From positions 1 to 31,910 of the IMG/VR virus record IMGVR_UViG_3300032323_001221: a stretch of 31,910 nt of DNA. One strand, 5' to 3'. A program made the translations under genes and the position numbers. The notes beneath the pieces are model-generated. The model saw nothing but the letters and a program-made list of their open reading frames with translations, was not told the origin of the DNA and ran no database searches. This document shows positions 8,592 through 12,035 of this stretch, one piece after another. Source of the DNA: a virus. Within the stretch, counting starts at the first letter, position 1, and the number at the start of each line of letters is the position of its first letter.

Positions 8592-9335
8592 TTATTCTAT
8601 ACACTCGCACGCTGGAGAATGCCAATCTTCAATTTCCCAATCGATTTTTAATTGCGATCGGTCCGAGTTTATTAATTCAGTCCAACTTTTATTTCTCCCT
8701 AATCCTTTAATTTCAGAAAGTTTTGTCGCGTTTTTTTCCATATAAATAATGCGCTCTTTTAATTCATCGGATAATTTTAATATTTCATTTTTCTTCATAT
8801 TTGGACAAAAGAAACAAGAACTTTTTCCGGGCAAAGTTAAGCCAGCATTTTCAATAACTTCAATACATTTATCTCTATTCCAACCCCATTCGATTAAAGG
8901 ATAATAATTTTCGAAATTTTCATTTGGATTTTCTTTTATTCGCCTTTCTTCGCCAGCATCAAAACCAACCCACATTTGCATTTTTTCATCAGGGTAATTT
9001 GTTTTAATATATTTTTCAATAGGTGTTATTTTAAATTTTTGGCTGCAAGTTTTCCAACCGAACGCAATCGGGGGAATGGTATTATTATTTAAACAATCTT
9101 GTTCTAATGTTAGTTCGTCCCCGTTTTTTGTTTTATACCTCAATGTTTTTATTTGCGGGAAATTTTTAGTTATTAGCCAAGCGTTTAATTCATTTATAAA
9201 TTGATATGTATGCGGGTGTTCTCCGCCTGTATCAGCAAATAGTATTTCATCGGGGATTAAACCATATTTAACCATATTAACTAAAATTGCGGTTGAGTTT
9301 GTACCACCGCCAAAAGAAACAATTATTTTTTTCAT
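8592..9335 (-). CDS. PP-loop enzyme of the PAPS reductase superfamily
   Basis: This encodes 247 residues with the ATP-binding PP-loop SFGGGTNS at 7-14, FADTGGEHP near 33, and a WVGFDAGEERRI motif near 122. These place it in the adenine-nucleotide alpha-hydrolase / phosphoadenosine phosphosulfate reductase superfamily. It is rich in cysteine: C81, C97, C157, a CFFCP pair at 174-177 and a C-terminal CEC at 243-245, which suggests a metal or iron-sulfur site. Superfamily members reduce sulfate nucleotides, thiolate tRNA or insert sulfur in DNA (DndC); which applies cannot be told, and no dnd partner genes are present. It lies 11 bases downstream of dnaB, inside the replication unit. Confidence 0.75.
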   Translation of the reverse strand: MKKIIVSFGGGTNSTAILVNMVKYGLIPDEILFADTGGEHPHTYQFINELNAWLITKNFPQIKTLRYKTKNGDELTLEQDCLNNNTIPPIAFGWKTCSQKFKITPIEKYIKTNYPDEKMQMWVGFDAGEERRIKENPNENFENYYPLIEWGWNRDKCIEVIENAGLTLPGKSSCFFCPNMKKNEILKLSDELKERIIYMEKNATKLSEIKGLGRNKSWTELINSDRSQLKIDWEIEDWHSPACECIE

Positions 9336-9346
9336 AGTATTTTTTT

Positions 9347-10744
9347 TTAAAATGGTAATTCACGATCGACTTCGTAAAATGATTTATTTGGCTGCAAATT
9401 AGTTTTTAATTCGGGAAATTGATTCGGGCTTTCATTCATTCCAAAAAAGCTGCTCATTGTGGAATTGTGCCGAAAACCTACGGAACCCGTCGCCCCTTGC
9501 CTGTGCTTTTCAAAAAGTAAAAATATTTCGTTTGTATAAGGCGCGCCCGTTTCTTCGTTTTTTAAATCGTAATATTCAGGGCGCCAAATAAAAGCGACTG
9601 TATCGGCGTCTTGTTCGATTGAACCTGATTCGCGTAAATGAGAAAGGGATGGTTTTTTGTCGGTTGTTTCTTCGCATTTTCGATTTAACTGAGCTAAAAC
9701 AATAAAGGGAATGTTCAATTCTTTTTGCGCGGCTTTCAAAGTTCGGGATATTTGCGAAACTTCCGCCTCTCTGTTACCCCCTTTGAACCCTTCTAAGGTC
9801 ATCAATTGCAAATAGTCGATAATTACCCACTCGCATTGATTTAAACGCGCGTGTCGTTTTATAATGCGTATTGCTTCATTAACCCCGCATCCAGCTTTAT
9901 CGTAAATTTTAAAAGGTTTGTTTTCAACTATTCCGATTGTTTTTTCGAAATACGTTAATTCATCAGGGTTTAACGTCCCGTCCCGAAGTGCCGAAGATCG
10001 GATTCGTTCGTTTGAGTTTTGCAAAATTAAACGCTGGGTTAATTGCGATTGCGACATTTCGAGATTAAAATAAATTCCGGGCTTGCCTGTTTGCATCCCG
10101 AAAAATAAAGCTAAGGCGGTTTTTCCCATACTTGGACGCGCCCCGATAATAATTAATTCGTTTTGCCACCCGCCCGTGAATTTATTAACGGATTCAATCC
10201 CCGTTTCTAAGCCGCTTGTTTGCCCTGACTTCGCTAATTCAGCGCGCCTATAATATGCTTCCCGTTCGTTTGTGGTTAATTCAGACATTTCAACTATCTT
10301 TTGAAGTTCGGAACCTTCCTCAGTAAGTTTGGTTAGGCGTTTAATCATTTCTTCGGCTATATCGCGCCCCGGTCTTTTTTCGTGCAGACCTATTCCAACC
10401 TCATAATAGATTTTAGTGATATTTCGCGTTATTAAGGCGTTATGAAGCGTTTCTATTATTTCGGGGATGTTCTCGTTATAAGTTACGTTTTGGCTCGTTT
10501 TAAGGGCTTCGGCGTATTCGTCCATTGAAAACGATTCCGAAGATTTCCAAGCGGTTAAAAGTGAAACGGGATCGGGGCGTTTATTTTCGTCGTTTATTTT
10601 TTTTATAAAATGGAATGCTTTTCGACAAAGTTCGTTTTCAAAATGGTGCGGTCCGATTTGAGAAATGATCTCTTTGTAAATTTCATTCGGGCTTAAAAGT
10701 ATTCCGATTAAGGTTTTTTCAATTTGATCGTTTGGGTTATTCAT
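9347..10744 (-). CDS. dnaB: Replicative DNA helicase, DnaB family
   Basis: This encodes 465 residues from the ATG at 10744. An in-frame ATG at 10834 would add 30 residues, but MNNPNDQIEKTLIG is the normal DnaB start, follows an AACCCC leader, and overlaps the initiator gene by only 8 bases. The N-terminal DnaB domain is followed by the RecA-like motor: Walker A GARPSMGKT at 201-209, Walker B VIIDYLQLM at 307-315, and RESGSIEQDAD at 371-381. The helicase unwinds DNA at the phage fork and is presumably loaded by the winged-helix protein encoded just upstream. Confidence 0.95.
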   Translation of the reverse strand: MNNPNDQIEKTLIGILLSPNEIYKEIISQIGPHHFENELCRKAFHFIKKINDENKRPDPVSLLTAWKSSESFSMDEYAEALKTSQNVTYNENIPEIIETLHNALITRNITKIYYEVGIGLHEKRPGRDIAEEMIKRLTKLTEEGSELQKIVEMSELTTNEREAYYRRAELAKSGQTSGLETGIESVNKFTGGWQNELIIIGARPSMGKTALALFFGMQTGKPGIYFNLEMSQSQLTQRLILQNSNERIRSSALRDGTLNPDELTYFEKTIGIVENKPFKIYDKAGCGVNEAIRIIKRHARLNQCEWVIIDYLQLMTLEGFKGGNREAEVSQISRTLKAAQKELNIPFIVLAQLNRKCEETTDKKPSLSHLRESGSIEQDADTVAFIWRPEYYDLKNEETGAPYTNEIFLLFEKHRQGATGSVGFRHNSTMSSFFGMNESPNQFPELKTNLQPNKSFYEVDRELPF

Positions 10745-11447
10745 AGTGAATTCTTTTTTTAGGGGTTTTGATTTCGTATTTTCCAGCGTTTTGAGTGTTT
10801 CGAATCCATTGCTGCAATTTATTTTGGATTCCAAAATTTCTTTGATGATTTAATTCTATTCCGCCGTCCTTATGCGGGGTTGAATAATAGTTAATAAAGT
10901 CTTTATAAAGAATTTCAGGGTAACCGCTATTCGGGTGTTCTTCCTTAAATTTATTTATTCGCTCTGTGAATTCTTCGGCGGTTGCTTTCACGAACCAATT
11001 ATGCAAACCTAAATTAGAACTTTTTGAAACTTGAATTTCATTTTCTGCAAAAAAGTCTTTATTGTTTAATAAGTCTATATCGTTTAATAAGTCTTTTTTT
11101 TGTGTCCAATTGCTTTCCATTTGGTTTTCATTTGGTTTCCGCGTGCTTTTCATTTGCTTTCCATTTAATGGAAGGCAAATAACCCTATTTTTATATTGAT
11201 TTTGAGTTTTCGAAACCGTTTTAATAAAGCCGAATTCCTCTAATTTATTTAAAGTTTTAATCATAGTTGTTCGGGAATTAATCCCGCTCATTTCCTGAAT
11301 ATCGACTAAAATAATAGCGAATTTTTCCTTCCATAAACTTTTGTTCGCCCTGTTCAATAACGCGAAATAAACGGCTATTAAATAAGGGTCAACCTTTTCG
11401 GGGTTTTCATCAATCCACGAATAGAATTTATTGAAATAATCAAACAT
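10737..11447 (-). CDS. Winged-helix replication initiator / helicase-loader-like protein
   Basis: This encodes 236 residues. Residues 1-95 form a winged-helix domain (LIAVYFALLNRANKSLW, then SGINSRTTMIKTLNKLEEFG as the recognition region). A low-complexity linker at about 95-135 is followed by a C-terminal helical domain ending in NFGIQNKLQQWIRN, which looks DnaD/helicase-loader-like. It lies directly upstream of dnaB with an 8-base overlap, as lambda O/P genes precede helicase functions. The DNA encoding the linker holds five 11-bp repeats and AT-rich 18-bp repeats, so the gene probably contains the origin it acts on. Confidence 0.7.
   Translation of the reverse strand: MFDYFNKFYSWIDENPEKVDPYLIAVYFALLNRANKSLWKEKFAIILVDIQEMSGINSRTTMIKTLNKLEEFGFIKTVSKTQNQYKNRVICLPLNGKQMKSTRKPNENQMESNWTQKKDLLNDIDLLNNKDFFAENEIQVSKSSNLGLHNWFVKATAEEFTERINKFKEEHPNSGYPEILYKDFINYYSTPHKDGGIELNHQRNFGIQNKLQQWIRNTQNAGKYEIKTPKKRIHYE
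11053..11094 (-). repeat. AT-rich 18-bp direct repeats, candidate DNA-unwinding element
   Basis: On the plus strand, AAGTCTTTATTGTTTAAT (11053-11070) is followed by AAGTCTATATCGTTTAAT (11071-11088) and a partial third copy AAGTCT (11089-11094). The repeats lie in the linker part of the initiator gene, next to the 11-bp iterons. Because 18 is a multiple of three they also give a repeated peptide (DLLN). AT-rich repeats beside iterons are typical of phage origins such as that of lambda. Confidence 0.5.
11113..11167 (-). repeat. Five tandem 11-bp iteron-like repeats, candidate replication origin
   Basis: On the plus strand five successive 11-base units occur without gaps: CTTTCCATTTG, GTTTTCATTTG, GTTTCCGCGTG, CTTTTCATTTG and CTTTCCATTTA. 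The period is about one helical turn and is not a multiple of three, so selection on the protein does not explain it. The site is inside the initiator gene and 19 bases from the AT-rich 18-bp repeats. Together they look like a lambda-type origin with initiator-binding iterons. That the encoded winged-helix protein binds them is inference. Confidence 0.55.
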
Positions 11448-11449
11448 AA

Positions 11450-11659
11450 CTATTCAGCTAAAAACCTTGAAATTGCTAAATCTTCAATTCCATACATTGC
11501 TAATTCACGTATAAAATCATTTAGTAAATCTTCCTTTGAATTGTGTTCAATATTCAATGCAGCTTGATTTTCAATTTTAGCTAAACGGAATTCTAAATAA
11601 TAGCATTTAGCCATTTCAATAATTTCATTTTCCGTTAATTCTTTAAATGTTGTTCTCAT
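11450..11659 (-). CDS. Small protein of unknown function
   Basis: This encodes 69 acidic, helical residues (LTENEIIEMAKCYYLEFRLA, then LLNDFIRELAMYG). It has no membrane segment and no clear HTH. It is the first gene after the structured RNA and terminator at 11671-11778 and lies 2 bases before the initiator gene, so it heads the initiator-dnaB operon if the terminator is efficient. Its start codon lies 11 bases beyond the terminator T-run, which leaves almost no untranslated leader from the RNA element. Confidence 0.55.
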   Translation of the reverse strand: MRTTFKELTENEIIEMAKCYYLEFRLAKIENQAALNIEHNSKEDLLNDFIRELAMYGIEDLAISRFLAE

Positions 11660-11670
11660 TTTTTTTTAAA

Positions 11671-11739
11671 ATAAAAAAGCCCTAATCGACTTGCGGTGAG
11701 ACCGGAATAAAAGTTTATTCCTCGCAAGCCCATTAGGGC
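11671..11739 (-). terminator. Terminator formed by the outer stem of the structured RNA
   Basis: The 8-bp stem GCCCTAAT/ATTAGGGC encloses P3 and P4 and is followed by TTTTTTATTTT on the minus strand, ending 12 bases before the next ATG. This is a rho-independent terminator with an unusually large, structured loop. It may be conditional, because the 5' arm can pair instead within GCCC-TAAT-GGGC. Confidence 0.6.
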
Positions 11740-11778
11740 AAAATATTTTTCCTTGTTCGGGGTCTCACGTCCGAACGT
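11671..11778 (-). ncRNA. Structured RNA with pseudoknot potential, own promoter and terminator
   Basis: About 105 nt on the minus strand with nested pairing that I checked base by base. P1 is GTTCGG/CCGAAC (11776-11771 with 11760-11755). P2 is GCCCTAAT/ATTAGGGC (11739-11732 with 11686-11679) followed by six T. P3 is CTTGCG/CGCAAG (11728-11723 with 11695-11690). P4 is GGAATAA/TTATTCC (11721-11715 with 11710-11704). The P1 loop carries GTGAGACC, perfectly complementary to GGTCTCAC (11703-11696) between P4 and P3, which gives an 8-bp kissing pseudoknot. A -7 box lies just upstream. GCCC-TAAT-GGGC can also form an alternative hairpin that would break P2. It encodes no protein of note. I match it to no known RNA class. 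Confidence 0.7.
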
Positions 11779-11782
11779 TTCA

Positions 11783-11790
11783 CAAATATA
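11783..11790 (-). promoter_or_regulatory. Putative promoter (-7 box TATATTTG) of the structured RNA
   Basis: The minus strand reads TATATTTG, fitting TAnnTTTG. Transcription from it would begin about where helix P1 starts (11776). A TTG triplet at 11808-11806 is 15 bases upstream, closer than usual for a -33 box, so the promoter call is moderate. Confidence 0.45.
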
Positions 11791-11798
11791 ATCTTTTT

Positions 11799-12035
11799 TC
11801 AATTACAACCTTTCATGCTGCAAATTATTTTTCCGTGTATTACTTTCGCGTGCTGGCATTTTCCCGCCCTGATATCGTAATAATTAAAATCGCATTTAAT
11901 TTTCCACATTTGCCGAAATGAATAAGAGCTTTCAAATAGTTTTGTAAACTGTTCAAAGTTTAAATCGATTTCATCCAGCATTACAAAAGGTTCGGTTTTA
12001 TGCTTTGCTAAATAGTTTTCAAATTCCGCTTTCAT
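11799..12035 (-). CDS. Small protein with C-terminal Cys/His cluster
   Basis: This encodes 78 residues. The N-terminal half is acidic and helical (MLDEIDLNFEQFTKLFE). The C-terminal half holds a cluster of potential metal ligands: CDFNYYDIRAGKCQH at about 48-62, a His in KVIHGK, then CSMKGC near the end. This resembles a small zinc-binding fold, though no named family is recognised. It overlaps the upstream nuclease gene by 17 bases. It is the last gene before the structured RNA cassette. Confidence 0.5.
   Translation of the reverse strand: MKAEFENYLAKHKTEPFVMLDEIDLNFEQFTKLFESSYSFRQMWKIKCDFNYYDIRAGKCQHAKVIHGKIICSMKGCN

Follow-up and report, generated by a model that had tools for sequence, protein, structure and literature searches.

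The window analysed here is the IMG/VR virus record IMGVR_UViG_3300032323_001221 over its 31,910 bases, the large genes of which are all encoded on the minus strand. This strand also encodes an RNA cassette (11790 to 11673), which reads, in this direction, as a TATATTTG box, the hairpin P1, an A-rich linker, the elements P2/P3/P4 and T6. It is preceded by a gene of 78 aa (11799–12035, minus strand), which ends 8 nt before the box and is a different gene in L009, L019 and L022, and it is followed by a gene of 69 aa (11450–11659, minus strand), the ATG of which lies 13 nt past the T-run and the place of which is taken by other genes in relatives. Further downstream on the same strand are a replication initiator-like gene of 236 aa (10737–11447; PHROGs phrog_270 and phrog_18020) and a gene for a DnaB-type replicative helicase (9347–10834; Pfam DnaB_C, 2.5e-72; phrog_19). 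A sequence-only reading of this DNA had placed the element in a phage replication module; it lies at the front of this module, with the initiator-like gene and DnaB downstream. A PAPS-reductase-like gene (8592–9335, minus strand) lies just past the DnaB gene.

All parts of the cassette are given here for the minus strand. The box TATATTTG (11783–11790) is a promoter-type box of the TAnnTTTG (−7) type, as judged from its letters and from the statistics of the family members, and the predicted RNA of ~105 nt (11673–11779) would have its 5′ end near P1 and its 3′ end in the T-run, according to the limits of conservation in 14 homologues and 87 members. P1 (11755–11776) is a hairpin of 6 bp, GTTCGG (11776–11771) with CCGAAC (11760–11755), identified by covariation. 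Its loop contains the first pseudoknot strand, GTGAGACC (11761–11768), the Watson-Crick core of which pairs exactly over 8 bp with the second strand, GGTCTCAC (11696–11703), which is located between P4 and P3 and covaries with the first. The A-rich single-stranded linker AAGGAAAAATATTTT (11740–11754), in which AAAA and TTT are invariant in the 14-sequence alignment, leads to the long P2/P3/P4 hairpin (11679–11739; −31.5 kcal/mol), which is also delimited by covariation. This hairpin is comprised of P2 (8 bp, GCCCTAAT/ATTAGGGC, 11739–11732 with 11686–11679), P3 (7 bp with one G-U, GGCTTGC/GCAAGTC, 11730–11724 with 11694–11688) and P4 (7 bp, GGAATAA/TTATTCC, 11721–11715 with 11710–11704). P2 passes through one G·G mismatch into P3, giving a nearly continuous stem of 16–17 bp that forms a predicted intrinsic terminator with TTTTTT (11673–11678), a T-run also found in the members of alignment A3. 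The minus strand of the RNA region folds at −41.1 kcal/mol, compared with −25.2 kcal/mol for shuffled sequences (z −4.2), and is more stable than 200/200 of them.

Every element named by the sequence-only reading, which had described a structured RNA with a pseudoknot, a promoter box and a terminator, is thus present on the minus strand, including the TAnnTTTG-type box upstream (TATATTTG) and the six T after the outer stem (11678–11673). The stems that it listed all exist, but P1 lies outside the others, and what it called the outer stem is the nearly continuous P2+P3. Its proposal of a terminator switch based on a GCCC-TAAT-GGGC hairpin finds little energetic support: the hairpin exists and recurs in relatives (reduced in L020), but it is weak in the window, at −7.7 versus −31.5 kcal/mol. 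During in-silico prefix folding, GCCC/GGGC forms at an early stage, with −6 to −8 kcal/mol, and the terminator hairpin comes last, with −31 to −36 kcal/mol, so that a switch would need an additional factor.

Homologues were collected without motif bias by means of two protein anchors (the initiator and an exonuclease), which led to related contigs and to 14 aligned intergenic sequences; the covariance model (CM) R1 subsequently added L016 and L020 to this set. Two pattern scans of IMG/VR followed by CM R1 yielded at least 87 members in uncultivated phage contigs (R1 E-value 1.9e-12 or better), a lower bound, 15 of which were reached through the protein anchors and are free of pattern bias. The patterns fix GGGCTGCGAG, and the second also ACCGCAG, so that conservation of these segments in pattern-found members is partly built in; P1, the variable pseudoknot positions and most of P2 and P4 were left unfixed. 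TGCGAG and CCGCA are invariant in the unbiased homologue set. CM scores are 69–152 bits in the sense orientation and at most ~38 bits in antisense, and together with the G-U pairs they give the strand of the RNA, which is the sense strand. Each record, in contigs of up to 55 kb, holds one strong match, always in sense. Two close relatives by exonuclease, L017 and L021, contain no strong copy in the whole record, that of L017 being a fragment, and the RNA may be dispensable or replaced in them.

The earlier reader had named no matching RNA class, and Rfam 15 likewise gave no match for the window (at gathering or E <= 5) and no gathering-threshold match for nine loci holding divergent members. 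ARAGORN detected no tRNA or tmRNA in the RNA region, and the annotations made nearby include no cognate effector gene for a CRISPR-like or guide RNA. The literature searched contains no description of this RNA, the supplementary models of human microbiome RNAs (PMC8040213) lying outside this comparison. A blastn comparison of the region and the clade-B core with 50,697 phage records produced no convincing match, and no good match was found in the parts covered of the cultured or deposited phages L373–L375, L478 and L479. In a pattern scan of genome contigs, those that were CM-scored among the matches listed proved to be noise. Neither a CM search nor a pattern search of 395 Bacteroidota genomes identified a member, the CM being insensitive there (8 candidates scored per genome), and none of the 4 pattern matches resembled the RNA. 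A free structural descriptor scan was abandoned as too permissive, recovering 36/87 known members and 4 chance matches per 1.24 Mb of shuffled sequence. On these comparisons, the predicted RNA represents a family of phage RNAs that had not been catalogued before.

The earlier reading had pointed to compensatory change in homologues as a check, and such change is seen in all five helices. In alignment A1, which has no motif bias and into which the pseudoknot was written, 97.8% of cells are paired and 17 pairs show two-sided change (P1, 2; pseudoknot, 4; P2/P3, 6; P4, 5). The covariation score is 0.437 versus 0.187 for shuffled alignments, 0/500 of which reach it, and sliding the structures by 1–3 columns lowers pairing to 29–46%. 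Alignment A3 (82 distinct sequences) shows two-sided change at 25/38 pairs, including 5/6 pairs of P1, with a score of 0.419 versus 0.160 (0/500), and its slid controls collapse too. Paired cells in A3 amount to 99.8% in P1, 96.4% in the pseudoknot, 96.6% in P2/P3 and just 76% in P4, because the length of P4 varies. The structure, strand, edges and location of the predicted RNA are established by sequence comparison.

The pseudoknot evolves in a manner of its own. Compensated alleles in the unbiased set include GTGAGACC/GGTCTCAC, GGTAGTAGC/GCTACTACC, GGTCGAAGC/GCTTCGACC, GGTAGTATC/GATACTACC, AGTAGAATC/GATTCTACC, GGTCGAATC/GATTCGACC and GGTGGAATC/GATTCCACC, and the 87 members hold 22 complete alleles, several of which occur in RNAs with widely different sequences outside the pseudoknot. 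In the 8-bp core, 689/689 cells are Watson-Crick and none is G-U, compared with a G-U share of 12–13% in P1 and P2/P3. Among near-identical RNAs, that is, pairs with 1–6 differences outside the pseudoknot, which share ancestry so that the counts are not independent, two-sided change affects 7.3% of base pairs in the pseudoknot, 0.27% in P2/P3 and none in P1 and P4, a rate per base pair ~27 times faster in the pseudoknot than in P2/P3; one-sided change, by contrast, affects 0.5% in the pseudoknot versus 5.8% in P1. L161 and L241, for example, have 2 other differences and 2 changed pseudoknot base pairs, and L174 and L227 have 6 other differences and 3 changed pseudoknot base pairs. Both octamers are absent elsewhere in the window, the fetched flanks show no enrichment of own-allele octamers of the kind that a trans partner would produce, and no association by eye exists between the pseudoknot allele and the type of the downstream initiator. 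The idea that the loop (T-NNN-A) resembles an anticodon was rejected: its triplets show no amino-acid logic and form pairs within the RNA. Template switching between arms was also discarded as the cause of the concerted changes, because P2 and P4 are inverted repeats as well and yet keep G-U pairs.

A candidate for the same fold is present in L415 (5726–5598, minus strand), a GC-richer phage contig first fetched as noise. Its CM score of 37.4 bits (E about 5e-7) equals those of the best antisense artefacts; an exact 8-bp pseudoknot, GTGAAACC/GGTTTCAC, occurs at the predicted place, a pairing that is not encoded in the model. The L415 element has no T-run, follows directly on an 849-aa gene and precedes an HNH-like gene by ~20 nt, and a clamp-loader-like gene is situated further downstream. 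L415 is likely to carry a distant family member, represented by one sequence only.

The TAnnTTTG box matches at 6/6 positions in 65/85 members and at >=5/6 in 84/85, compared with 7.5% of random positions; the box belonged to model R1, though the RNA supplies most of the score. A TTTG at −33 is absent in the window and not consistent across members, and the −33 TTTG of Flavobacterium johnsoniae promoters is likewise inconsistent (PMC7366714). The boxes and the nearest RecT proteins, which are those of Leeuwenhoekiella and Riemerella phages, suggest that the hosts are Bacteroidota, probably Flavobacteriia. Other regulatory regions were observed on the minus strand of the window. A second promoter-hairpin-terminator cassette (7570–7455) is located before the terminase genes and consists of a TATCTTTG box, a GTGTAAGGGGTTACAC hairpin, a terminator (7504–7473) and then TAACTTTG; over its ~113 nt it is 94–99% identical in most close relatives and 78–87% in a few, with compensatory change at 6/22 pairs and no match in Rfam at gathering. 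A 289-base intergenic region ahead of early genes (15312–15024) contains a TATTTTTG box followed by the terminator-like AAGCCC..GGGGCTTTTTT and, past this, a promoter-type box TATCTTTG, and is 72–88% conserved in relatives across ~300 nt. A promoter with a pair of near-consensus TTTG and TATCTTTG (17445–17325) lies upstream of an early gene block.

Across nearly all loci, a downstream ATG on the same strand is located 0–13 nt after the cassette (nested ORFs or contig ends obscure this in a few cases), and the gene before the cassette usually stops only a few bases away. DnaB is encoded ~0.6–1.6 kb downstream in 64/87 loci, several of the remaining loci being truncated contigs. As far as annotation by reading the sequence allows, a helicase-like gene replaces DnaB in L151, L193, L196, L205 and L211, mostly with a 675–716-aa gene after it, and other genes occupy this place in L240, L246 and L167. 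The first downstream gene differs even among close relatives (HNH-like, 65–73-aa ORFs, a 227-aa gene and several initiator types), and methyltransferase-like and nuclease-like genes also occur downstream across the loci. Since the genes right after the RNA change so freely, a metabolite switch for one pathway is not favoured. The initiators of L161, L164 and L173 differ in their N-terminal parts but end in similar tails (KQP..TRAS.GVKME), which would fit an exchange of N-terminal domains beside the RNA.

The reading that we prefer, tentatively and at somewhat less than even odds, is that of a self-terminating leader or small RNA that meters the expression of the replication genes. The RNA would start from its own promoter, and most transcripts would end at its own terminator to give a stable small RNA; read-through at the same terminator would supply the mRNA of the replication module, because the start codon 0–13 nt past the T-run leaves no space for another promoter. 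A phage protein, a host factor or the short RNA itself might raise read-through. Arrangements of this kind occur in phage lambda, where terminators head phage modules (pR′-6S RNA-tR′ and nutR-tR1) and read-through decides expression. Read-through in lambda requires the proteins Q or N, and no Q- or N-like protein was identified for this RNA. The lambda 6S RNA, unlike the RNA described here, is not known to contain a conserved pseudoknot. The put RNA of phage HK022 is also a structured early phage leader, possibly acting on RNA polymerase in cis; it is comprised of two simple hairpins and has no terminator of its own, and the resemblance is one of type. The closest counterpart may be IsrK of the Gifsy-1 prophage, in which a terminated small RNA and a read-through mRNA arise from one promoter and the short form acts on the long (PMC4825925). 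IsrK has its own promoter, a leaky Rho-independent terminator and a read-through mRNA with a small ORF directly downstream (PMC4825925), an arrangement that the present RNA would share: the order of promoter (−7 box only), short RNA, intrinsic terminator and same-strand ORF is predicted here from the sequence. However, IsrK controls an antirepressor operon, and its long mRNA and trans effect have been demonstrated; the likeness is one of layout only.

Several observations speak against the leader model. Phage genes are normally packed closely, so that a short distance to the ATG says little in favour of action in cis; there is no consensus −33 element, the gene right after the RNA varies and L415 has no T-run. 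Furthermore, a terminator alone needs no conserved pseudoknot, and the model leaves the fast change of the pseudoknot unexplained. Action in trans alone is nearly as likely: the product would be a free small RNA that binds another RNA or a protein of the host or the phage, its adjacency to replication genes reflecting conserved synteny only. This is a serious possibility, if short of an even chance, given that the promoter box and terminator form a cassette of their own, that the structure goes far beyond a mere terminator, that upstream and downstream genes change independently and that the hypervariable Watson-Crick pseudoknot suggests a specificity element. On the other hand, most copies of the RNA stand in front of a replication module and all are in sense, the fetched flanks show no enriched partner site for the pseudoknot sequence, and L415 lacks a terminator.

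The remaining explanations are far less probable. A DNA element (a single-strand origin, a primosome site or a recombination site) would fit inverted repeats that adjoin replication and recombination genes at a place where neighbours are exchanged; it is very unlikely, in view of the numerous G-U pairs, confined to one strand, in P1, P2/P3 and P4, the promoter box and T-run at the edges and a crossing pseudoknot, which is typical of RNA. A self-cleaving ribozyme resembling pistol has a slimmer chance still. Pistol is phage-associated and has a pseudoknot from a hairpin loop to a junction (PMC4604425), and the shared plan extends to P1 loop, internal junction and A-rich linker. By the definition of the pistol pseudoknot (PMC4604425), however, the partner is on the other shoulder, the second strand in the 87 members being part of the 3′-side segment from P4 to P3; sequence and Rfam matches are lacking, and the present RNA forms a promoter-to-terminator unit with a terminator end. 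Least probable of all is an ordinary intrinsic terminator that lies near a hairpin by chance: the 16–17-bp stem and T-run suit it, but covariation in P1 and the pseudoknot is no weaker than in the terminator stem, which contradicts it, and TGCGAG and CCGCA are invariant in the unbiased set.

It is also tempting to speculate, although this is improbable at present, that the pseudoknot is an allele-specific self-recognition code, by which the short RNA would recognise only leaders or sister RNAs of the same allele, for instance through strands exchanged between two molecules. Such a code would account for concerted Watson-Crick double substitutions in an RNA that is otherwise near-constant. If this were true, the expression of replication genes would be set for the phage's own genome and not for that of a co-infecting relative.

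The family is strongly supported, has no Rfam entry and is widely distributed among uncultivated phages whose hosts are probably Bacteroidota, a phylum in which phage gene control is little known. Its pseudoknot follows an unusual mode of evolution that is directly testable. Because the RNA keeps the boundary of the replication module while its neighbours are swapped, it may serve these phages as a common point at which replication is controlled.
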